Shown: piece after piece, positions 14,198 to 26,719 of the stretch | Layout: the number at the start of each line of letters is the position of its first letter | Position numbering within the stretch: position 1 is the first letter of the stretch | Assembly: GCF_000282215.1 (NCBI RefSeq) | Contig: NZ_AKJS01000013.1 | Location: forward strand, 1-49,646 | DNA: 49,646 nucleotides | Source: Pseudomonas sp. GM21 | GTDB lineage: Bacteria > Pseudomonadota > Gammaproteobacteria > Pseudomonadales > Pseudomonadaceae | Direction of reading: 5' to 3' | Notes under the pieces: generated by a model | What the model was told of the DNA's origin: nothing | What the model saw: only the letters and a program-made list of their open reading frames with translations | The model's database searches: none | Made by a program: the position numbers and the translations under genes

Positions 14198-14748
14198 GGC
14201 CACTCTTGGTTCCTATGAAGTGAGGTTTCGATTGGGTCGCTTTATCTCTTCTCGAATTAATTGAATCGTAGCATTTGCATCCGTTTACGGGCTGTCGATC
14301 TCCTGTCTCAGACCGTGCGACCTGGAAACCGGATGACTGACTGCATAACCCGGAACAAATGAACCGGGTTCTTTTATCGTAGTGCACATCCAGGCATGAA
14401 CGCGCGCGGTTTCAAAAAAGCATCTCACAAAGGCTCCCGAGCGTCCTAGAATCTCTGGTTCTACCGGCCTTTGAAATGCTTTTTAGCCCGCAAAAGATGC
14501 CGCGCTGAGCCTTCAATCCACTTGAGGGCATGCAACACTCCCGCCCGTCACCCCCCTGACACCCTAGCCGGTCGAACTGGCACTAACCCGTGCCCCCGTT
14601 GTCAGTAAATGGCGCCTGTAGCGACAAGGACCGTCTCGGACAGCGGCAAGTCAGGCTACGTTTGGTGTTTTCTCCAATGCCTCAGGGCAAAAAAGACTCG
14701 CGATGGATTGCTACCTGGACTGACTATTCCTTTTGCGGGCGACATTTT
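14198..14748. other. 551-base non-coding stretch before the type I secretion operon
   Basis: No credible protein gene. It contains an intrinsic terminator (listed separately) whose upstream transcript has no coding frame, so a small RNA from about 14250 to 14375 is possible. It also contains an imperfect inverted repeat: AAAAAAGCAT and CAAAGG at 14414-14433 against CCTTTG and ATGCTTTTT at 14468-14484. The promoter of the downstream secretion genes should be in the right half. Confidence 0.4.
14347..14375 (+). terminator. Intrinsic terminator with no coding gene before it
   Basis: AACCCGG (14347-14353) pairs with CCGGGTT (14364-14370) around a 10-base loop, followed by CTTTTAT. On the plus strand no protein gene ends before it, so it may close a small RNA transcript. 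Confidence 0.5.
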
Positions 14749-16470
14749 ATGGGTTTGCTTCTCGATCCGCGTCATGACATTGATGCCGCTTTATTAAGCT
14801 ATCGCCGGGTGTTCTGGTCGCTGGCGCTGTTCAGTGGGGTGATCAACCTGCTTGTGCTGGTGCCGTCGCTCTACATGATGCAGGTATACGACCGGGTGCT
14901 GACCAGCCGCAACGAAACCACCTTGTACATGCTCACGCTGATCGCCTTGGGACTGTTCATGTTCAGCGGCCTGATTGAGTGGGCACGCGGCGAGGTAATG
15001 ATTCGCATGAGCGCGGGGCTGGACGATGCCTTGGGCGAGCGGATTTTCGACGCAGCCTTCGCTCGCAGCCTGCGCGAGCACAACGCAAACCCGGCGCAGG
15101 TGCTCACCGATCTGGCGACATTGCGGCAATTGATCACCGGCCAAGGCTTGATCGCTTTGCTCGATGCGCCGTGGTTGCCCATCTTCCTGCTGGTGGCGTT
15201 CATCATTCACCCCTGGTTCGGCCTGCTGACGCTGGTCCTGGCCCTGGTGCTGATTGGCCTGGCGCTGTGGGGCGAATTGGCGACTCGCACGCGCTTGGGC
15301 GAAGCCAATCGTCTGGGCGTGCAGTCGTCGACCTATGTAAATAGTACGTTACACAATGCCGAGGTTATCCAGGCGCTGGGCATGCTCGGACCGTTGCGCC
15401 AGCGCTGGAGCCTGCTGCAACAACGCATCATCGCCGCTCAGGCCCATGCCAGCGATCGTAGCGCGCGTATCACTTCGACGACCCGCTTCGTGCGCATCTC
15501 CGGACAGTCTCTGGCCTTGGGGCTGGGGGCGTTGCTGGTGCTGGAAGGCCAATTGTCGGCGGGCATGATGATTGCGATGTCGCTACTGCTGGGGCGTGCG
15601 CTGGCGCCCGTGGAAATCGCCATTGGTTCGTGGAAGCAATTCAACTCCGGCCGCCAGAGCTACCAGCGCTTGAGCCAACTGCTGGCCCAACATCCGCGCG
15701 AGCGCCTGCGCATGCCTTTGCCAGCCCCCACCGGCGCGGTACGCCTGGAGCAGTTATATGTCGGCCCGCCTGGCGCCTCGCAACCTACCTTGCGCGGTAT
15801 CAATTTCAGCCTGGCCAAAGGGGATGTGCTCGCCGTCGTTGGCGCCAGTGCCAGTGGTAAATCAACGCTGGCCAGAGCGCTGGTCGGGGTATGGCCGGCC
15901 ATGGGCGGGTCGGTGCGTCTGGACAACGCCGAGATCAGTCAATGGTCCCACGACGCCTTGGGCCCGCACCTTGGATACCTGCCCCAAGACATCGAGCTGT
16001 TCGACGGCAGTGTGGCCGACAACATTGCCCGCTTCGGTGAACAGCACGCGGACAAGATCATCGCCGCCGGGCGCCATGCCGGCATTCACGAGATGATCCT
16101 GAATTTCCCCAAGGGTTACGACACGCCACTGGGCCCCGGCGGGCTTGGCTTGTCCGGTGGACAAAAACAACGCCTCGGCCTGGCTCGCGCGCTCTATGGG
16201 TGCCCGTCGCTGATTGTGCTCGATGAGCCCAATTCCAACCTCGATGAAGCCGGAGAACTGGCGCTGGTGCAGGCCATCAGTGCACTCAAGATTGCTGGCA
16301 GCACCGTGGTGCTGATTACCCACCGGCCTAATGTGCTGGCGGTGGTCGATCACATCCTGGTGCTCAAGGACGGCACTCAACAAGCATTCGGTCCACGGGA
16401 TCGGGTGCTCAACGCATTAATGCCAGGGCCTAAACCGGCCGTGGTGAGGGAGGCTGGCGGAAATGCGTGA
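14749..16470 (+). CDS. Type I secretion ABC transporter (PrtD-like permease/ATPase)
   Basis: 573-aa half-transporter that energises export of an RTX protein through a type I channel. Residues 20-300 form the membrane domain (VFWSLALFSGVINLLVLVPS, then LYMMQVYDRVLTSRNE as in PrtD/AprD). The ATPase domain has Walker A GASASGKST (365-373), signature LSGGQ (468-472), Walker B LIVLDEP and H-loop H525. I start at MGLLLDPRHD, the family start; the ribosome site is weak and upstream codons are not conserved. It overlaps the HlyD-type adaptor by 8 bases. The likely cargo is the RTX epimerase encoded convergently downstream. Confidence 0.92.
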   Translation: MGLLLDPRHDIDAALLSYRRVFWSLALFSGVINLLVLVPSLYMMQVYDRVLTSRNETTLYMLTLIALGLFMFSGLIEWARGEVMIRMSAGLDDALGERIFDAAFARSLREHNANPAQVLTDLATLRQLITGQGLIALLDAPWLPIFLLVAFIIHPWFGLLTLVLALVLIGLALWGELATRTRLGEANRLGVQSSTYVNSTLHNAEVIQALGMLGPLRQRWSLLQQRIIAAQAHASDRSARITSTTRFVRISGQSLALGLGALLVLEGQLSAGMMIAMSLLLGRALAPVEIAIGSWKQFNSGRQSYQRLSQLLAQHPRERLRMPLPAPTGAVRLEQLYVGPPGASQPTLRGINFSLAKGDVLAVVGASASGKSTLARALVGVWPAMGGSVRLDNAEISQWSHDALGPHLGYLPQDIELFDGSVADNIARFGEQHADKIIAAGRHAGIHEMILNFPKGYDTPLGPGGLGLSGGQKQRLGLARALYGCPSLIVLDEPNSNLDEAGELALVQAISALKIAGSTVVLITHRPNVLAVVDHILVLKDGTQQAFGPRDRVLNALMPGPKPAVVREAGGNA

Positions 16471-17833
16471 TTTGACCCCAGGAACACAAATGTACAGCGA
16501 GCAGGGCCTGAGCGTACGCGGCGCCACAGCGCTGCCCACTGCCAGTACGGACGCCGGGGGAGCGGCTCGCTATGGCGTGGGTTTTCTTGTCCTGACGCTG
16601 GGCGGCTTCCTGCTCTGGGCCTGCCTGGCACCGCTCGACCAGGGTGTCGTGGGCAGCGGCACCGTGGTGGTAGCAGGCGAACGCAAGGCCGTGCAGTCGT
16701 TGGTCGGTGGGGTGGTGGAGAAGCTGCTGGTCAGCGATGGCGACCGCGTCACCCAGGGACAGTTGCTGGTGCAACTCAATACGGTGCAGGCGCAGTCGCA
16801 ACGGGACGTGATCCTGGGCAAGTTGCTCAATGATCGCAGCGTCGAGGCGCGGTTGATTGCCGAGCGCCTGGGCAAAGGCGAGATCCAATGGCCCGCGCAA
16901 TTGCTGGAACGCGTCGACGAGCCACGGGTCAAGGCCGCCATGGACTTGCAGAGCCAGTTGTTTCTGACCCGCCGCGCAGAACTGGGCAGCCGCTTGCAGA
17001 TCATCGAGCACGAAGTCGAGGCATTGCAGCAGCAATTGCTGGGCTACGAAGGTCTCAAGCGCAACTACGACTCGCAGATGAACTTTCAGCAGCAGGAACT
17101 GAAAGGCCTGCGTGATTTGGCCAGTGAAGGCTACATTCCTCGGAACAAACTTTTAGAGGCCGAGCGCAACGCCGCCCAATTGGCCGGGCAGATTGCCTCC
17201 GGGGTGGGCGATGTCGGCAGGACCCGCCAGGCGATCAACGAGAGCCGGCTCAAGGCCTTGCAGGCGCAGCAGGAATTTCGCCGCGATGCCGAAACCCAGC
17301 TCAGCGAGGTCTCTGCCGAGGCGGCCGGTTATGCTGATCAGATCAATGCCTTGCAGTTTGAAGTCGACAACGGAGCGATCCGTGCGCCGGTGTCCGGGCA
17401 GGTCATGGACGTGAGCGTTCATACGGTCGGGGGCGTTACGCAGGCCGGCCAAACCCTGATGCAGGTGGTGCCGCTGGATGCGCCGATGGCGATCACCGCG
17501 CGTTTCGAGCCGCTGATGGCCGATAAGTTGCGCCCGGGGCTGCCGGTGCATGTGCATTTTACGGCGCTGCAACGGGTGGACACGCCGACCGTCACCGGCA
17601 CGGTGGCCACGGTGTCGGCGGACCAGTTGATCGATGAACAGACACACCAGCCGTACTTTTCCGCCAAGGTAGACATTCCCGCCGACACCGTCGCCTCGCT
17701 GCAGGCCGCCGGCCTGCTGGTGCGCCCCGGCATGCTCGCCGATGTCACGGTGGTGACGGGGGAACGTACGTTGATGAATTACCTGATGAAGCCGTTGCGT
17801 GAACGCTTGCTGGTGGCGTTCAAAGAGGAGTGA
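16463..17833 (+). CDS. Type I secretion membrane fusion (HlyD/PrtE-like) adaptor
   Basis: 456-aa periplasmic adaptor linking the inner-membrane ABC transporter to an outer-membrane TolC-like channel. One membrane helix lies near residues 35-55 (GVGFLVLTLGGFLLWACLAP). A lipoyl/biotinyl-like half follows (VVEKLLVSDGDRVTQGQLLV), then long coiled-coil helices (about 95-285, EHEVEALQQQL), the second lipoyl half (GAIRAPVSGQVMDVSVHTVGG) and the C-terminal beta domain. GGCGGA precedes the ATG; a later ATG (MYSEQ) is possible. No TolC/PrtF gene follows, so the outer-membrane part must come from elsewhere. Confidence 0.92.
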   Translation: MRDLTPGTQMYSEQGLSVRGATALPTASTDAGGAARYGVGFLVLTLGGFLLWACLAPLDQGVVGSGTVVVAGERKAVQSLVGGVVEKLLVSDGDRVTQGQLLVQLNTVQAQSQRDVILGKLLNDRSVEARLIAERLGKGEIQWPAQLLERVDEPRVKAAMDLQSQLFLTRRAELGSRLQIIEHEVEALQQQLLGYEGLKRNYDSQMNFQQQELKGLRDLASEGYIPRNKLLEAERNAAQLAGQIASGVGDVGRTRQAINESRLKALQAQQEFRRDAETQLSEVSAEAAGYADQINALQFEVDNGAIRAPVSGQVMDVSVHTVGGVTQAGQTLMQVVPLDAPMAITARFEPLMADKLRPGLPVHVHFTALQRVDTPTVTGTVATVSADQLIDEQTHQPYFSAKVDIPADTVASLQAAGLLVRPGMLADVTVVTGERTLMNYLMKPLRERLLVAFKEE

Positions 17834-17837
17834 GCAG

Positions 17838-17901
17838 AGCGAGCTTGCTCGCGAAGGCGCTGGATCAGCGTAGGCTAATCCACCGCTATCGCGAGCAAGT
17901 G
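17838..17901. repeat. REP-type inverted pair between convergent genes
   Basis: CTTGCTCGCGA at 17844-17854 and TCGCGAGCAAG at 17889-17899 are exact reverse complements. This is the Pseudomonas REP core arranged head to head (REPIN-like). It lies between the adaptor stop and the epimerase stop, where it can fold into a hairpin that protects or terminates both convergent messages. Confidence 0.75.
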
Positions 17902-17905
17902 CAAC

Positions 17906-20900
17906 TCAGGCTGTAAAGTCGCTGGCGTGCAGCTCCTTGACACCCACCAGCTCGAACTGGAACTCAGGGGTGGCGTCGGCGTTGACACTGCCTTCGAGGA
18001 TGCCATCGGCAAAGCGAATTTGGCCGGTGGCGTTGGTGGGGTTGAAGGCGTTGCTGCCAATGAACGTAAAGGCGTCGACGGTGGCAGTCAGCGGGTTGGC
18101 GTCCAGGCCGGTCAGATCCAGTTGATCAAGCTCTGTGGTCTTGAAACCGCTGATCACATCGCGCAAAGCCCCGATGCCCATGTCCGACAAGGCACTAAAC
18201 ACGTAAGTATCCGCACCCGTGCCGCCGGTGAGGCTGTCGGTGCCTGCACCGCCGATCAGTCGATCATCGCCTGAACCACCCACTAGCGAATCGTTACCCG
18301 CACCACCGTCCAGAACGTTCCCTGAGCTGTTGCCCGACAGCGTGTCGGCGTAAGCGCTTCCCGTCACGTTCTCGAAGAATTTCAGGGTGTCGAGTCCGGA
18401 ACCCACGGTGTTTTGTTGTGCGGATGTCGAGAGGGTTACGGTAACCCCCGCCAACGCGCGCTCATAGGACACGGTGTCCTTACCCTCGCGGCCGTCCAGC
18501 ACATTGTTGCCGGCACCGGCAAACAGCGTGTTGTCCAACGCATTCCCCGTGCCATTGGCGGCGCCAGCGCTATCGATATACAAATTCTCGACGTTGCTGG
18601 CGAGGGAATAGGCCGCCAGGCTGCTGTGCACGCTGTCGATCCCTCCAGGCACCCCATTGCTGTTGGTCTCGATCACGGTGTCGTCGGCATTGTCGACATA
18701 GTAGGTGTCGTCGCCATCGCCACCGCTCATGCTGTCGGCCCCTGCGGCACCATCGATCACGTTATCGGCGTCATTACCGGTGATGAAGTTGCGCCGCTCA
18801 TTGCCGGTGCCATCGATCTCCGACACACCAGTGAGCACCAGGTTTTCGAGATTGGCGCCCAACGTCCAACTGACAGATGCCTGCACAGTGTCGATCTGCG
18901 CGGTCGAAGTGTTGGTTTCCACCACGCTGTCGAACGCGTTATCGACCACGTAGATGTCGTTGCCATCGCCCCCGGTCATGGTGTCGGCGCCCAGGTCGCC
19001 ATCCAGTGTGTCGTTGCCCGAGCTGCCCACCAGGGTATCCGCTTGATCGGTGCCGGAAATCATCCCGCCCTGATTCTGAGCGTTGTCGAAAATGTCCTGC
19101 ACGCTGTTGTTGTCGTTGGGATTTCCCTGGAAGCCAAGGTCGGTGGCGATGTAGTCGGCCAGGCGCTGGCCGACGATTTCTGCCGATTCTTCGTGCAGGT
19201 GCCAGACGTCATCCGGATACACTAACGGATCGACTTCATAGCGCAAGGGCAGGTCGTTGTAGTCCACCGCCAGTTTGACGTCGGCGCGTTCGGCGGCCAT
19301 GGCTTCCTGGGCGGCGCGGACATAGCCGACTCCTTCGACGATGGAGGCAATCTTTTCTTCCGAATAACCACGGGCACGCGCCGCATCCTGCTCGTAGTGA
19401 CCGGTTTCCATCATGTACACGCTGAAGTTGCCGAACTGGGCATGCAGGTAATCAAACACCTTCAAGGTTGCGGCCTTGTAAGCCGCTGCGGCCCCTGCCT
19501 TGTCGGTGGCGCGGCCGATCTCCTGGGCGGCTTCCTCGCCCTGGCCCCAAATGATGCCCATGGTGACGTTATCGACGGCTTTGAGTTCGGTGAGCTGGTC
19601 TTGCAGCAACGCCACGGCGCGCAACAACGCAGGCCCGGGTTGATTGGTGTCGGTCAGCCACCAGCACAATTTGAGTTCCTCGGGGCTCAGGGTCGACAGG
19701 CCGTTGACAGTGCTTCCACCCACGGCGATGTCTATGCCGTTGCCGTCGGCATCAGTGAACTGGCTGCGTACGTCATAGGGGGTGTAGCGGTCCAGGTCGT
19801 TGACCAGCATCGAGGTGCCGGACTGATCGTCGTCCTCCGTCATGCGCAGCAGGCGCGCATTGGATTGGCCGAGTGTGGGCAGGTAGAGGATGTCTTGCTG
19901 GGCTCGTTCGCCGAACACGAAATCACTGGCGGTCAGGGTGTTGAGGTAGTTGCCGTTGAGGGCAATTTCGAAGCGATTGCCATCGGCGTCGGCCTCGGCG
20001 GATTTGATGTAGGTCTTGTCGCCGGCCGCATTGAGGGTCATGTACAACGTACCGTTGCTGCCATCGCCGAGGCCGAGGATGCCAAGGCCCGAAACATCGA
20101 TCTTGTCGACGCCCACGGTGAAGTCATAAATCGTGTCGGTGGCCGTGACGCCGCCGGTGTCGTAGTCCCGATAGCTGTCTTGTACGTTGGTGTAGCGGAA
20201 GGTGTCGGCACCGTCGCCGCCGTACAGCGAATCGCGTCCGGCGCCGCCGTCGACGATGTCAGCGCCGGTGCCGGCCTTGATGGTGTCGTTGCCACCGAGG
20301 CCGAGAATCAGGTCTGCGGCTGCCGTGCCGGTGAGGCTTTCAGCGTTGGTGGTGCCGGTGATGGTGTTGGCGGGCGCATCGGCCACCACCAGGGCGAAGC
20401 TGTCGCTCACCGACGCACCTGAAGGATCGGTGGCCTTGACCAGTACGTTGTAATTGCCAGACGCCGTGCTGGTCGGCGTGCCGCTGAACGTCAGGCTGGT
20501 GGTGTTGAACTTCAGCCAGGCGGGCAGGGCGCTGCCGTCGGCAAGGGTCGCTGTGTAGGCCAGCACATCCTGATTGGCGTCGGTGAAGCTGTCGTGGGTC
20601 ACGGTGTACTGGAATGGCGTGCTTTCGGTGGCGTTTTGGTCGAGGAGGGGGATGGTCACCACCGGCGCGATATTGCTGGGGGTGTTCTGGTCGGCGAAGA
20701 CAAAATGACTCGCCGTCAGGCTGTTTAACAAGTTACCGGCCAGCGACACTTCGAAGCGGTTGCCGTTGGCGTCGACAGTGAGATCCTTGAGGTAGGTGCG
20801 GTTGGTAGACGCGCTGTAGGTCACTTGCAGCGTGCCGTTCAGGCCGTTGCCCAAGGCCGTGTAGCCGAGCGTCGAGACATCGATCTTGTCGGCGGTTACG

Positions 20901-23521
20901 TCGAAATCGAGGATCTGGTCACTGGCACTGGTGGTACCCGTGCGGTAGCTGTCGAGCTTTGAGGTGTAGCGGAATACATCGGCACCCGCGCCTCCGGTGA
21001 GTTTGTCGACGCCAGTACCGCCGACCAGGATGTCGTTGCCGGCGCCGCCATTAAGGGTGTCGTTACCACTGCCACCGAGCAGTTGTTCGTTGGCAGCGGT
21101 GCCCGTCAGCGTGTCGTTGTTCGGCGTGCCATTGATCACCGTGGGTGCGCCGGGTACGTCCTGTACGGCCAGGGTAAAACTGTCGCTGACGGTGGCATTG
21201 CTGCCATCGGACGCGGTGACCTGTATGGAATAGGTCCCCGATGCCGTGTCGCTTGGCGTGCCGCTGAACGTACGGGTGGCGGCATCGAAGGTCAGCCAGG
21301 CGGGCAGGGCGCTGCCATTGGCGAGTTTGGCGGTGTAGCTGAGGCTGTCGTTGTCCGGATCAGAAAAACTGGTGGCTGGCACCACATAGCTGAACGGGGT
21401 GTTTTCGGTGGCGTTCTGATCCAGCAGCGGCGTGGCCACCACCGGTGCCTGGTTGGTCGGTGACGACGTGGCGAAGACGAAGTTGGCGCTGGTCAGCTTG
21501 TCGAGGTAGTTGCCGTCCAGTGCCACTTCGAAGCGATTGCCATTGGCGTCGGCGGTCAGGGATTTGATGTAGGTCTTGGTGCCGGCACTGTTGAGTGCCA
21601 GGTACACGGTGTTGTTTTTGCCGTCCCCCAGGCCGGTGAAACCCATGGCCGAGAGGTCGACCTTGTCGGCGGTGATATCAAAGTCGGTGATCAGGTCGCC
21701 AAGGTTGGCACCGCCGGTGTTGTAGTTTCGGTAACTGTCCAGGCGATTGGAGAACACAAAGGAATCCGCCCCGGTGCCACCTGTGAGGGTGTCCATGCCG
21801 GCGCCACCGTCGAGCTTGTCGTCGCCCGCACCACCATTGAGGCTGTCGTTGCCCGCCAGGCCGAGCAGAGTATCTGCCGAATCACTGCCCAACAGCGAGT
21901 CGCTGGCGCTGGTGCCGGTGACCACCCGATTGAATATGAAGTTGCTGGCGGTCAGGGTGCTGGCCAGGTTGCCCGAGAGAATCAACTCGAAGCGATTGCC
22001 ACTGGCGTCGGCATCGTAGTCCTTGATGTAGGTGCGGTCGTTGCTGGTGTTGTAGCTGACCTGCAGGGTGCCGCCACGGCCATTGCCCAGGCCGGTGAAG
22101 CCGAGGCCGGCAAGGTCGATCTTGTCCTGGGTGACGTCGAAGTCAGTGATGGTGTCATCGAAGCTTGAAGTTGCGTTGCGGTAGCTGTCCGATTGAGCGG
22201 CGAATCGGAACGTATCGGCGCCGGTACCGCCGGTGAGTTTGTCGATGCCTGCACCGCCCACCAGAATGTCGCCACCGGCGCCACCATTGATCGTATCGTT
22301 ACCGGCGCCGCCAAAGAAAATCTCGCTGGCCGTACTGCCCAGCAGGGTGTCATTGCCAGCTGTGCCTTGCACGGTGGTCATCGGCACCGTGGCGCTGACG
22401 TAGCTGCCGTCGCCATAGACCAGCGTGGCGCCATTGCTGGTGTGGCTGATGGTGTTGCCGATGATGGCGTTACGATCGGTGCCGTCTTCATTGCGCTCTG
22501 CAACACCGTAGGTCGACAGGTTGCTGCCGCTGATGATGTTGCCCTGGATCGTGTTGTCGCTGCCGTTGAAGTACTGGCCGGACACGCCCAGGGTGTCGTC
22601 GTAGGACTGAATGATGATTTCCGGTACGGGGCTGCCCAGGGAATTGTTATTGAGCGTGTTGTCGATGACCTCGACGTGGTTGCTGCCGTAGATGCGGATC
22701 CCGGCGCTGTTGTTGTCGTGGATATCGACGCCGCTGACCGTCACGTCGCTGGACAGCTTGATCAGCACCCCTTCGGCGCCGTTGCCATACACCGCGCCAC
22801 CGGTGATGGTGATGTTGCTGGGGGAGGGGATGTTCTCGCTGCCGCGCTGCACCACGATGCCCGTACTGCCGTTGTTGTAGGCCACGTTGTTGGTGAGGGT
22901 GAAGTCGTGGGTGCTGGTGACGACGTTGAAACCGTGGCGGTCATTGTCGTAGGCGACGTTGTTTTCGAAGGTACTGTCGCTGAGGAAGTCAGCAACAAAA
23001 CCGTCCAGGCCATTGCCGTGGGACACGCTGTTCTTGATGACCATGTTGACGGTTTGCTCATGGGGGTCGAAACCGTACCCGGAGCAATCCTTGATCTCGA
23101 CGCTGTCGAGGGTGACGTTGGAGTCGTAGCCTTCTACGCCGGGAATGTAGCCATTGAACCATCCGTCGACCTTGCCGGTGGTGTTGTCGCGGTTACCGTC
23201 GATGGTGAGGTTGCTGACGCCAAAGTCGTGGGTTTCCTCGCCATAGGCCGAGCGGATGACACCTGTGATTTTGGTGTCGGTGCCGTCAGCTACCTTGACA
23301 GTGGTTTCGCCCATGCCGTCGCCGTACAGGTAGACGTTGCTCTTGAGCATCAGGCAACCGTCGGAGGGTTCCTCACCTCCCGTAACGATATAAGTTCCGG
23401 TGGGCATATACACCTGCCCCCCGCCTGCGGCAGCCGCTGCATCAATCGCACTTTGTATCGCTGCCGTGTCGTCTGTGATGCCATCTCCTTTGGCGCCAAA
23501 ATTCTGTACGTTGAAAATCAT
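17906..23521 (-). CDS. psmE: Secreted RTX mannuronan C-5 epimerase / O-acetylhydrolase (PsmE type)
   Basis: 1,871-aa alginate-modifying enzyme that turns mannuronate into guluronate in the polymer and probably removes acetyl groups. The order is: A-module beta-helix 1-380, with AlgE-type catalytic Y149, D152 and H154 (in YGFDPHE) and D178; R-modules about 385-530, 531-683, 795-942 and 1052-1204 with GGxGxD calcium repeats; cadherin/Ig-like domains about 690-788 and 950-1048; an SGNH acetylhydrolase about 1208-1462 with GQSN (S1220), WGQGE and DVWH (D1438, H1441); RTX repeats 1488-1776; and a C-terminal type I secretion region. The same epimerase plus acetylhydrolase combination is known from P. 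syringae PsmE. The ATG (MIFNVQNFGAKGDG) has GGAG seven bases upstream and no Sec signal, as expected for type I export by the convergent transporter. Confidence 0.93.
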   Translation of the reverse strand: MIFNVQNFGAKGDGITDDTAAIQSAIDAAAAAGGGQVYMPTGTYIVTGGEEPSDGCLMLKSNVYLYGDGMGETTVKVADGTDTKITGVIRSAYGEETHDFGVSNLTIDGNRDNTTGKVDGWFNGYIPGVEGYDSNVTLDSVEIKDCSGYGFDPHEQTVNMVIKNSVSHGNGLDGFVADFLSDSTFENNVAYDNDRHGFNVVTSTHDFTLTNNVAYNNGSTGIVVQRGSENIPSPSNITITGGAVYGNGAEGVLIKLSSDVTVSGVDIHDNNSAGIRIYGSNHVEVIDNTLNNNSLGSPVPEIIIQSYDDTLGVSGQYFNGSDNTIQGNIISGSNLSTYGVAERNEDGTDRNAIIGNTISHTSNGATLVYGDGSYVSATVPMTTVQGTAGNDTLLGSTASEIFFGGAGNDTINGGAGGDILVGGAGIDKLTGGTGADTFRFAAQSDSYRNATSSFDDTITDFDVTQDKIDLAGLGFTGLGNGRGGTLQVSYNTSNDRTYIKDYDADASGNRFELILSGNLASTLTASNFIFNRVVTGTSASDSLLGSDSADTLLGLAGNDSLNGGAGDDKLDGGAGMDTLTGGTGADSFVFSNRLDSYRNYNTGGANLGDLITDFDITADKVDLSAMGFTGLGDGKNNTVYLALNSAGTKTYIKSLTADANGNRFEVALDGNYLDKLTSANFVFATSSPTNQAPVVATPLLDQNATENTPFSYVVPATSFSDPDNDSLSYTAKLANGSALPAWLTFDAATRTFSGTPSDTASGTYSIQVTASDGSNATVSDSFTLAVQDVPGAPTVINGTPNNDTLTGTAANEQLLGGSGNDTLNGGAGNDILVGGTGVDKLTGGAGADVFRYTSKLDSYRTGTTSASDQILDFDVTADKIDVSTLGYTALGNGLNGTLQVTYSASTNRTYLKDLTVDANGNRFEVSLAGNLLNSLTASHFVFADQNTPSNIAPVVTIPLLDQNATESTPFQYTVTHDSFTDANQDVLAYTATLADGSALPAWLKFNTTSLTFSGTPTSTASGNYNVLVKATDPSGASVSDSFALVVADAPANTITGTTNAESLTGTAAADLILGLGGNDTIKAGTGADIVDGGAGRDSLYGGDGADTFRYTNVQDSYRDYDTGGVTATDTIYDFTVGVDKIDVSGLGILGLGDGSNGTLYMTLNAAGDKTYIKSAEADADGNRFEIALNGNYLNTLTASDFVFGERAQQDILYLPTLGQSNARLLRMTEDDDQSGTSMLVNDLDRYTPYDVRSQFTDADGNGIDIAVGGSTVNGLSTLSPEELKLCWWLTDTNQPGPALLRAVALLQDQLTELKAVDNVTMGIIWGQGEEAAQEIGRATDKAGAAAAYKAATLKVFDYLHAQFGNFSVYMMETGHYEQDAARARGYSEEKIASIVEGVGYVRAAQEAMAAERADVKLAVDYNDLPLRYEVDPLVYPDDVWHLHEESAEIVGQRLADYIATDLGFQGNPNDNNSVQDIFDNAQNQGGMISGTDQADTLVGSSGNDTLDGDLGADTMTGGDGNDIYVVDNAFDSVVETNTSTAQIDTVQASVSWTLGANLENLVLTGVSEIDGTGNERRNFITGNDADNVIDGAAGADSMSGGDGDDTYYVDNADDTVIETNSNGVPGGIDSVHSSLAAYSLASNVENLYIDSAGAANGTGNALDNTLFAGAGNNVLDGREGKDTVSYERALAGVTVTLSTSAQQNTVGSGLDTLKFFENVTGSAYADTLSGNSSGNVLDGGAGNDSLVGGSGDDRLIGGAGTDSLTGGTGADTYVFSALSDMGIGALRDVISGFKTTELDQLDLTGLDANPLTATVDAFTFIGSNAFNPTNATGQIRFADGILEGSVNADATPEFQFELVGVKELHASDFTA

Positions 23522-23802
23522 AAACTTACTCCGTGTCAGACTAAAACCTCGGTAGGTGCCAATATTCCATCGACGACCACGTGTTATGACCCAGCGGAGC
23601 GTAAAAGTTGTGACAGAAAACAAACTAACTGATCAGCGGTTGTGAAGAATTGCGCATAAGTGACGCTCTGTTGACGCTTCTTGGGTGGCGAGCCAGACCT
23701 TTCGCGCAGTGCTACGTCAAATACGCCGCCTATCGAAAGTAGGGGCGAGTGCTAGGCTCAGATCAACTTGATCTTGACTCTAACGAAATGGAGATTCACG
23801 AC

Positions 23803-25437
23803 ATGCCTGCCAAGCCAAAGCCCCGCAAGGCCAAGCCAAGCGTCTTGAATGAGCTTGATACGCTCAATGGTAAAGTTGATTTTGCCGACGGCGGACAGCT
23901 TGAGCGGCTTGAGCAACTGGTGAAGCAACTTCGACAGGCGCGCATAAGCGAAGAAGAACGATATTCGGATGACGTCGTCGTTGTGCGTCTGTCTGATGAA
24001 GTATCAGCAGATAGTCCTGAAGTTCAGTCAGCTTCGGTTTTAGGACTCGGCAACACTTCCACGGCCTTCGCTAAAGGAGGGAAGAGGGCGGCGCCCAAGA
24101 TGGATTTGATACATCAGTTCCGTGGCTCGATGGCCGTTAAAGCGAACAGGTCAGCTCTAATGGCGGTGCGTAGCAACTCACCCGGGCTGAAAGTCACTCC
24201 CGCAACATGGCTCTACCCACAGTACATCCGACCGATGGGAGATGAGCTGGATGCGTTCGCGATACAAGTGAGCGAAGGGATGAGGGCCAAACGCTTCGAA
24301 GTACAGCTGACCGACGCAGAAGACAAGCCGGTGGCAAAGGTCAAAGTGCGCGCACTGCTGGACTGGAATGGAGCCCATGCCAGCGTCGAGTCTGACAGTC
24401 AGGGCATTGCTCTTTTTTCAATCCCTCTTTCCTACCCCAAAATCGAACTCCTCATTGTCGAGCCTGAGCACACCTATTGGTCAGTGTTCGTTTCCGGTTT
24501 CGAGCGCGTCGCAGCGCCAAAGCGGGTGAGTATTGAGCTGAAGGCATTGACTCCCTATGGCTTTGGCTTGATCAACCATTACGCACCCTATGAAGAAAAC
24601 GCTGGCGAGAACGTCAGCGTCGGTGTCATCGATTGTGGTGTGGGGCCTCACGACGCGTTGGAATTGGCCGGAGGGGCGTGCCTGGTGCCGGGTGAAAACG
24701 CGGCGGACTACCTTGATAACGGCCTTGGCCACGGCACTCATGTCGCCGGAACCATCGCTGCAAAGAAACTGCCTGGAACAGAGGTGTATGGCGTCGCTCC
24801 GGCGTGTCGGCTGTTCGCTTACCGAGTGTGCCCGAAGACTGGAAATCGTGGACGAGCCAGGTCTATTGAAATAGCTGCCGCCATTGAGAGGGCGATCGCC
24901 GATGGGTGCGATGTGGTGAATATCAGCATGGGGAGTCTTGAGCCCATGCCTGAAGTTCCCGGCATTCTGGAACAGGCGCGTAACGCGGGCATGGTTGTAT
25001 TTGCCGCGACGGGAAACGACGGCGAACCGTCGATTCGCTACCCGGCCCGCTACGCCCATAGTCTGGCGGTAGGAGCATTGGGACGAGACGGAACATTTCC
25101 ACTCGATAGCCCTGATGTGAACCATGAAAGCCCAGTCAGGAAAGGGAATGAATTTGTTGCCGTGTTCTCCAACTATGGAAGGGAAACCGATTTCATCGGA
25201 GTAGGGGTGGCGGTGATCTCGACTTACCCGAAGGGGCTCTATGCTAATATGTCAGGGACCTCAATGGCGACGCCATTCACCAGCGGCATGGCGGCTCGCC
25301 TGCTGTCGAAGCACCCTGAGATCCTTGCCATGGCACGCGGGCCAGAGCGTGCAGACGCGATCATCAAGATGCTGTTCGAATCGACACGGAAGGTCGGCTG
25401 GAGCAATGACTACGAAGGTTTCGGAGTACTGAAATGA
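23803..25437 (+). CDS. S8 family serine peptidase (subtilase) without signal peptide
   Basis: 544-aa subtilase. The catalytic triad is D277 (GVIDCGV), H310 (GHGTHVAGT) and S487 (GTSMATP), with oxyanion N405 (ATGND), so it should be active. The first 250 residues are not an I9 propeptide: a basic Lys/Pro start, a charged helix (QLERLEQLVKQLRQARISEE) and then a beta-rich CNA/Ig-like segment (about 160-235). No Sec signal is visible, so it is either cytoplasmic or exported unconventionally. GGAG lies nine bases before ATG 23803; ATG 23788 is an alternative. The stop overlaps the next gene (ATGA), which looks like a detached propeptide/inhibitor. Confidence 0.9.
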   Translation: MPAKPKPRKAKPSVLNELDTLNGKVDFADGGQLERLEQLVKQLRQARISEEERYSDDVVVVRLSDEVSADSPEVQSASVLGLGNTSTAFAKGGKRAAPKMDLIHQFRGSMAVKANRSALMAVRSNSPGLKVTPATWLYPQYIRPMGDELDAFAIQVSEGMRAKRFEVQLTDAEDKPVAKVKVRALLDWNGAHASVESDSQGIALFSIPLSYPKIELLIVEPEHTYWSVFVSGFERVAAPKRVSIELKALTPYGFGLINHYAPYEENAGENVSVGVIDCGVGPHDALELAGGACLVPGENAADYLDNGLGHGTHVAGTIAAKKLPGTEVYGVAPACRLFAYRVCPKTGNRGRARSIEIAAAIERAIADGCDVVNISMGSLEPMPEVPGILEQARNAGMVVFAATGNDGEPSIRYPARYAHSLAVGALGRDGTFPLDSPDVNHESPVRKGNEFVAVFSNYGRETDFIGVGVAVISTYPKGLYANMSGTSMATPFTSGMAARLLSKHPEILAMARGPERADAIIKMLFESTRKVGWSNDYEGFGVLK

Positions 25438-25691
25438 CTAGCGTGGTTTTGACTTACAAAGGCCCGTCTTCAGAGAGAAAGGAAGCAGAATTGCGCCTGC
25501 GGCAGAAGCTCGATTGCACAGACTTTGTCTGCAGGGCGACTGATCTGTTCGAGGCTCAGGTCGATGAACGGCAGCTGTCGATTATCGCTGGAGAATCTCA
25601 ATGGCAAGTGACTTTCCCGTCCTACGCCGAGATTCGTAAACCGGGCACAAACTGGAACAAACTTCGCGATAAAACGCTTGAAATGAAATGA
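25434..25691 (+). CDS. Small protein coupled to the subtilase, possible stand-alone I9-type propeptide/inhibitor
   Basis: 85 aa, translationally coupled to the subtilase by a 4-base ATGA overlap. By eye its layout is strand (VVLTYKG), helix (KEAELRLRQKL), strand and second helix (LFEAQVDERQLSIIAG), then strand (QWQVTFPSY). The segment FEAQVDERQL with a later V-x-x-x-PSY resembles the F.A.v.e.q...L.....V..VEPD pattern of the subtilisin propeptide (Inhibitor I9) family, which folds and inhibits the protease. That the protease lacks such a domain itself supports the idea. This is an inference from pattern, not a confirmed match; the gene itself is well supported. Confidence 0.8.
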   Translation: MTSVVLTYKGPSSERKEAELRLRQKLDCTDFVCRATDLFEAQVDERQLSIIAGESQWQVTFPSYAEIRKPGTNWNKLRDKTLEMK

Positions 25692-25971: not shown

Positions 25972-26529
25972 TCATCCTCCGCTGACTTTCCAGTGTTTGA
26001 CATCGTCTGCAAACATCATTTGTTTCATCTCATGGGCAATGCCATAGGCCAGAGACTCATGCGCGGCGATGACTTTTTCTTCGGCTGAAAGGCAATGAAA
26101 AATATCGAGCTTGGTCTCTGCGTCAGCCGTTTCAAGCGTGAATATCTGCACGTAACGCGCGAGGTCGTTGTCGAGGCTCGACAGGTATTCACGCAGGCGC
26201 TGATGGTCGACTGATTTTTGGCTGAAGTACCAATTCATCGGGTGAATCAGGAAGCGTGAGTGGGGCGAGGTGATACGGCGGTTTGCCGCCAAAAACATAA
26301 TGATGCCCATTGATTCGATGTTGCCCGCATTGATTGCGCATAGCGGTACCGGCAATGATTTCAGGAACGTGTAGAGCGTGAAGCCAAAGTTAGTACTCCC
26401 TCCGCTTGTAGAAAGATTGAGGAGCAAGGAGGTGGCACCTTGTTCGATGGCTTCGAGGCAACAGTCCCGGAAGCGCTCAGTCGTCCCTTGATCGATCTGG
26501 CAATGAAAATGCACGATGTGTTCAGTCAT
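25972..26529 (-). CDS. Orphan ClpP/SDH-like serine protease
   Basis: 185-aa member of the ClpP/crotonase-like fold. The ClpP nucleophile motif ASMG appears as IESMG (S73) and the histidine motif as FLIHPMN (H96). LLLNLSTSGGSTNFGFTLY matches the ClpP L..NSPGG....G..IYD region, and LSAEE...AHESLAYGI matches its C-terminal helix. The third catalytic residue is uncertain. ClpP works as a 14-mer with ClpX or ClpA; here no ATPase gene is adjacent. AGGA is nine bases before ATG 26529. It may act on specific substrates under stress or without an unfoldase; that is inference. Confidence 0.8.
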   Translation of the reverse strand: MTEHIVHFHCQIDQGTTERFRDCCLEAIEQGATSLLLNLSTSGGSTNFGFTLYTFLKSLPVPLCAINAGNIESMGIIMFLAANRRITSPHSRFLIHPMNWYFSQKSVDHQRLREYLSSLDNDLARYVQIFTLETADAETKLDIFHCLSAEEKVIAAHESLAYGIAHEMKQMMFADDVKHWKVSGG

Positions 26530-26719
26530 CGATTGACGTCCTGAGTGTGATGCATGGAGGACTTCCACGATTTATCAAGTCTAGTAAACATCGATCATTT
26601 CATCTGGGCTCTGACGTCAGTTGCCCCCTCCATAACGCCAACGCCGTCCATCGAATTAGCGCATATTCAATGGAACCAAAGCCCCGAATCCGCTCGTCGC
26701 GAGTCCAATATTTCCGTTC

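Follow-up and report, generated by a model that had tools for sequence, protein, structure and literature searches.

What is the function of a small gene that begins within the last codons of a bacterial subtilase gene? The question arises from a two-gene locus of Pseudomonas sp. GM21 (genome of 6.6 Mb in 210 contigs), contained in a window of 49,646 nucleotides, i.e., the whole analyzed stretch of contig NZ_AKJS01000013.1. In the initial annotation of this DNA, the propeptide of the protease was thought to have moved into the second gene. Comparative genomics and structure prediction point to a different arrangement: by a judgment only slightly better than even, this recurrent pair would combine a subtilase zymogen carrying a propeptide-like domain in cis with a stand-alone I9-like inhibitor acting in trans.

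Identification and recurrence of the gene pair

The following features define the pair:

23790..23793, + strand: putative ribosome-binding site GGAG of the protease gene (direct sequence reading)
23803..25437, + strand: S8 subtilase of 544 amino acids (aa), ATG start (open reading frame, ORF; PF00082, E 5.6e-38)
25423..25426, + strand: putative ribosome-binding site GGAG of the small gene, within the protease gene (direct sequence reading)
25434..25691, + strand: stand-alone I9-like protein of 85 aa, predicted to inhibit the protease (ORF, relatives, AlphaFold2)

The ATG at 23803 was preferred over a GTG at 23749 as the protease start because of the GGAG at 23790-23793, which begins 13 bases 5′ of this ATG. 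The protease stop and the small-gene start overlap in the sequence ATGA, as annotated initially, and the small ORF, which has its own GGAG, is a real gene: it has 7 full-length relatives (38-98% identity), among which the ratio of nonsynonymous to synonymous substitution rates (dN/dS) is 0.12-0.25 in the 4 of 7 relative pairs that were computable, showing purifying selection among the relatives. For both proteins, the close relatives that bear names come from Pseudomonas strains.

Downstream regions were examined in 22 loci of the protease family, namely, the window, 8 plasmid loci, 5 loci from an 80-locus set, and 8 from genome searches at E 1e-60. The plasmid loci (L002-L007, L177, and L178) were taken from 254 plasmid records with any match, L177 via a separate search; the 5 of 80 loci were kept for having the same architecture, the other 75 were classed together, not individually, as general subtilases, for those listed on the basis of their printed length. 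Presence of the small gene was judged by alignment, partly by eye. It was found in 14 of the 22 loci (the window, L002-L006, L177, L178, L008, L009, L010, L014, L017, and L089), while one locus (L007) is broken. The pairing is therefore conserved far beyond Pseudomonas, in line with the expectation of the initial annotation, and it spans three phyla, two of them via metagenome-assembled genomes only. In five further close relatives, the genomes found with the protease and with the small protein agree in the length of their longest contig, which suggests that the genes are linked there as well; two of these (P0012 and P0016) were scored as "present" in the tree, on which the presence label requires three changes, one gain and two losses being sufficient. 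The protease and the small gene are thus a real, recurrent two-gene pair. In the Variovorax plasmid, the small gene (L002:5298-5561) is missing from the incomplete gene table of the record and could be recognized solely as an ORF.

Members of the protease family are rare and patchily distributed. The family was found in 6 of 398 genomes of a phylum sample and 1 of 248 of a family sample (own genome included in both), and in 1 of 249 and 4 of 150 genomes of two orders chosen for holding a match. The own genome contains one full-length member, the other three matches being partial, and is the only one of 298 genus genomes in which the small gene was found. In the order of carrier genome G640, only G640 itself was found; with a profile lacking the rows from its locus, the best of three places in G640 lay directly 3′ of its protease gene (E 0.074). 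When 5.8 billion proteins were searched with a profile, 43 small proteins were listed, of which 41 have 72-85 aa and none has a Pfam domain; tblastn of the small protein against plasmids gave no match. In a scan of viral contigs, 80 of at least 272 loci were kept; the matches start at protease residue 167 in one locus and at residue 229 in the others.

This distribution bears on the possibility that the pair is a post-translational toxin-antidote system, in which free protease would kill or arrest the cell and the small protein would serve as antidote. The overlap of the genes, the rarity and patchiness of the family, its occurrence on plasmids (8 loci, drawn from a plasmid collection), and the variable neighboring genes all agree with such a role; solitary proteases of the family (L090 and L174-L176) argue against it, and we consider it rather unlikely.

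Domain architecture of the protease

Within the protease, these features were assigned:

23971..24222, + strand: predicted cis propeptide-like (I9-like) domain, residues 57-140 (AlphaFold2 model)
24280..24546, + strand: immunoglobulin (Ig)/macroglobulin-like domain, residues 160-248, between the propeptide-like and catalytic domains (model strands; sub-threshold Big_1/MG4)
24550..25434, + strand: subtilisin catalytic domain, residues 250-544 (Pfam, alignments, structure superposition)
24631-24633, + strand: triad residue D277
24730-24732, + strand: triad residue H310
25261-25263, + strand: triad residue S487

The protein belongs to peptidase family S8 and has an intact Asp-His-Ser triad, as first annotated: Peptidase_S8 (PF00082) at residues 268-510 is its sole Pfam match above cut-off (E 5.6e-38), and D277, H310, and S487 show no variation in either of two 15-row alignments of the family. 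The best NCBIfam match, a mycosin, is below cut-off. For the predicted Ig-like domain, a Big_1 match in the relative L008 (E 6.2e-7) scores 29.9 bits, under the cut-off of 34.9. The annotated lack of a signal peptide was borne out by inspection, which revealed no N-terminal hydrophobic stretch by eye (no signal-peptide program was run), and the protein is likely a cytoplasmic subtilase. Membership in a listed defense system was considered and rejected, since PADLOC returned only its general "subtilase" model and weak IetS matches. In some members (window 23803-23880, L008:2471-2620, and P0019), a lysine/alanine/proline-rich, histone-H1-like tail, recognized by eye, precedes the propeptide-like domain.

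The propeptide itself was the point on which the first reading had to be revised. No I9 propeptide had been visible, and Pfam indeed finds none, yet in the AlphaFold2 model residues ~57-140 and the catalytic domain superpose on unprocessed pro-subtilisin E (327 residues, 3.0 Å), placing a propeptide-like domain where pro-subtilisin has it. This domain is predicted with moderate local confidence, and relatives with a full N-terminus have a similar strand pattern by eye. A protease without a propeptide was therefore rejected, and the view that this module had been relocated to the second gene found no support; the product of that gene would rather be an extra, stand-alone copy. The corresponding alternative, in which the protease lacks a propeptide and depends for maturation on the product of the second gene, would account for the missing Pfam I9 domain, for an N-terminus that does not match the I9 profile significantly, and for the propeptide fold predicted for the adjacent protein; given the cis domain in the model and the strand pattern of the relatives, it is very improbable. 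Judged from the models, the small protein would plausibly act as a second, I9-like lock in trans and is no substitute for a missing propeptide.

Predicted fold and sequence relationships of the small protein

The AlphaFold2 model of the small protein (mean pLDDT, the predicted local distance difference test score, 79.5) has the elements E2-8, H12-25, E31-35, E38-43, H45-52, and E57-60 (E, strand; H, helix), followed by a C-terminal extension of low confidence. The strand-helix-strand-helix-strand layout first proposed was nearly right: the predicted order is strand-helix-strand-strand-helix-strand, i.e., the beta-alpha-beta-beta-alpha-beta fold of propeptides.

At the profile level, the small proteins match the family's own cis domain with an hhalign E of 9e-5, carried by alphaproteobacterial sequences, and the Pseudomonas-type small proteins match the I9 profile weakly (E 0.0032 over 62 columns); in a column-shuffle control of the profile comparison, the maximum score was 8.8. 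No Pfam family above cut-off and no NCBIfam family was found for the small protein. PF05922 matched neither it nor four relatives up to a limit of E 10, at which HMMER filters drop most weak matches, and the protein is not filed as a Pfam I9 member. Solved structures searched with the sequence gave no match, and those searched with the profile gave nothing convincing (best E 0.22, an aldolase).

Proposed mechanism

If the pair is a cis-locked zymogen with an inhibitor in trans, the protease would cleave itself near residue 140, freeing the propeptide-like domain, and the small protein may then bind the freed active site and keep the enzyme silent in the cell. Yeast Pbi2 silences protease B in the same manner. 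Translational coupling via ATGA would keep the two proteins in step, and the protease would be freed once the inhibitor is lost or degraded. A bolder extension sees a "double-locked" module that crosses phyla, a toxin-antidote pair with propeptide locks in cis and in trans, in which the protease would be turned against the cell or an invader once the small protein is removed; this is speculative and, in our estimate, doubtful.

The small protein could also be an external folding chaperone that folds the protease and blocks it only transiently, as ORF2 does for the Aeromonas protease ASP. The gene order is shared, with the small gene downstream, and ASP becomes active only with ORF2, which also inhibits it via its C-terminal region (PMC5638518, which, like PMC6993865 and PMC7159879 below, is drawn on here in excerpt). 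However, ASP is described as propeptide-deficient (PMC5638518, title of reference 17), whereas a cis propeptide-like domain is predicted for the present protease, and the small gene is absent from 7 of 22 family loci. Two points favor an inhibitor or guard over a chaperone: the protease, by its model, retains a propeptide-like domain, and these seven loci do without the small gene; the chaperone role is accordingly unlikely.

Observations weighing against an inhibitor in trans

Several observations count against the preferred reading of a zymogen with a separate I9-like inhibitor. The first concerns sequence. Pfam I9 matches neither protein, and the cis domain gave no significant match to the I9 profile (E 0.16; subgroups, 0.48 and 0.11), which slightly reduced our confidence. 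The cis-trans match comes from the alphaproteobacterial set; comparison of the Pseudomonas-type small proteins with cis domains gave E 0.83 and 0.11. When aligned to the I9 profile, the whole set of small proteins (E 0.077) and the alphaproteobacterial set (E 0.058) match over only 22 columns and in another register. The idea that the tail of each small protein copies the propeptide tail of its own protease was rejected: P was 0.0007-0.004 for all 12 pairs and 0.04 for the four pairs that prompted the idea, taken alone, and 0.13-0.42 for six held-out pairs, two further pairs being omitted from this set as near-copies.

The second concerns structure. The claimed resemblance of the 85-aa protein to an I9 propeptide stands as far as the predicted fold goes and falters on specificity, since the model fits MESD/Boca, ribosomal proteins, UreE, and Cas2 as well as it fits propeptides; a Foldseek search with the small protein returned nothing at E 1e-3 (best E 0.02, a Cas2). 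By eye, the window protein extends 25 residues beyond its last core strand, whereas propeptides end in the active site, and it is missing the acidic cap residues of subtilisin propeptides. It could instead be a ferredoxin-like adaptor or sensor that brings substrates or a signal to the protease without inhibiting it, which is compatible with a common fold tied with many unrelated ferredoxin-like proteins, with the low model confidence of the C-terminal extension, and with the weak I9 profile match. Against such a role speaks that, at the profile level, the small protein resembles the propeptide-like domain found in this family of proteases; we regard the adaptor role as quite unlikely.

The third concerns distribution. 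The small gene is absent from 7 of the 22 loci (L090-L093 and L174-L176), as judged from ~420 bases 3′ read in all frames and, for L090 and L174 alone, from the 5′ side as well. Of these loci, L091-L093 lie outside the family clade of 24 rows (support 92/82). The absence of orphan small genes is weak evidence because a stricter profile run missed G640, a carrier. Chance ORFs of similar size also trail some general subtilases, hence the reliance on alignment in scoring presence.

The proteases of L091-L093, a related set, are longer (625-691 aa). By eye, their N-terminus is propeptide-like and they have an Ig-like part; they are extended at the C-terminus, and no small gene was seen downstream.

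Genomic neighborhood

A conserved wider operon was rejected because neighbors differ among the plasmid loci, the window, and five other loci, and the pair therefore looks self-contained. In an Agrobacterium Ti plasmid (L005:5632-7734) and a Rhizobium plasmid (L006:5623-7755), a Trypsin_2 and Endonuclease_NS fusion of 700-710 aa directly follows the pair; in L005, a CHAT-domain protein is encoded upstream. In the Cupriavidus plasmid (L007:1-5173), genes for an ATP-binding protein and another S8 peptidase adjoin the broken copy of the pair; going by annotation, these two genes would form an AAA/S8 pair such as occurs in anti-phage systems.

In the window at 14590-23623, ABC-transporter and HlyD-domain genes stand beside a gene for a 1905-aa protein with RTX-like repeats on the opposite strand. 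The latter appears by eye to be an alginate-epimerase-like secreted protein and, with the transporters, probably makes up a type I secretion unit that has no relation to the pair. A solitary gene for a ClpP-like protease (25972-26568; PF00574, E 1.2e-11) lies close to the pair on its downstream side, on the opposite strand.

Significance and comparison with known systems

If the proposed arrangement is correct, a bacterial pair with both locks would offer a simple, directly assayable model for the restraint of a broad cytoplasmic protease and its release. Among bacteria, its small protein would then be, to our knowledge, the first I9-like inhibitor to stand alone while its cognate partner keeps a propeptide of its own. 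The small gene is easily overlooked and matches no Pfam family above cut-off and no NCBIfam family; the pair sometimes lies beside nuclease-protease conflict genes. No report of this pair was found in the literature searched, a search that left most subscription journals outside its scope.

The conflict genes recall the proposed "System 3", whose core is a trypsin and an Endonuclease_NS (NucA) and for which S8 domains have been noted (PMC7159879). The L005/L006 fusion resembles this core, but it lies beside the pair in only 2 of 8 plasmid loci. A NucA-type endonuclease with a trypsin-like peptidase is absent among the seven scanned neighbors in the window, as is the fusion among ten scanned neighbors in five other loci, and the word "propeptide" does not occur in the main text of PMC7159879.

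Compared with the classical I9 propeptide (PF05922; pro-subtilisin E, 3whi), the cis domain and the small protein are alike in predicted fold, and the former also in its position in cis; the differences are the lack of a Pfam match, the Ig-like domain between the propeptide-like and catalytic domains, and the second copy in trans.

The nearest bacterial precedent is Aeromonas ASP/ORF2. In the excerpted account, such operons occur in Aeromonas sobria and also in Vibrio, Shewanella, Chromobacterium, and Pseudoalteromonas, and ASP needs ORF2, encoded downstream, which places its C-terminal region at the active site (PMC5638518); the initial annotation named no bacterial system exactly like this one, but related arrangements are thus described. 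As there, a cognate small protein is encoded directly 3′ of a bacterial S8 protease gene. In contrast to ASP, which is secreted and called propeptide-deficient, the protease described here has no visible signal peptide and a propeptide-like domain in its model, at moderate local confidence.

Stand-alone propeptide mimics have been described in fungi, plants, and apicomplexans, and those listed in the excerpted text are eukaryotic: yeast protease B inhibitor, Pleurotus POIA1, Arabidopsis SPI-1, Toxoplasma MIC5, and Plasmodium SUB1-ProM (PMC6993865). The small protein resembles them in being a small separate product with a propeptide fold, here predicted. Those proteins were tested as inhibitors or regulators, whereas the present one is bacterial, its gene overlaps that of the protease, and its inhibitory activity is predicted. 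A particular parallel is SUB1-ProM, whose gene lies beside subtilase genes and whose target, SUB1, has its own propeptide (PMC6993865), as appears to be the case here; on the best reading, the pair would work like Plasmodium SUB1/SUB1-ProM.
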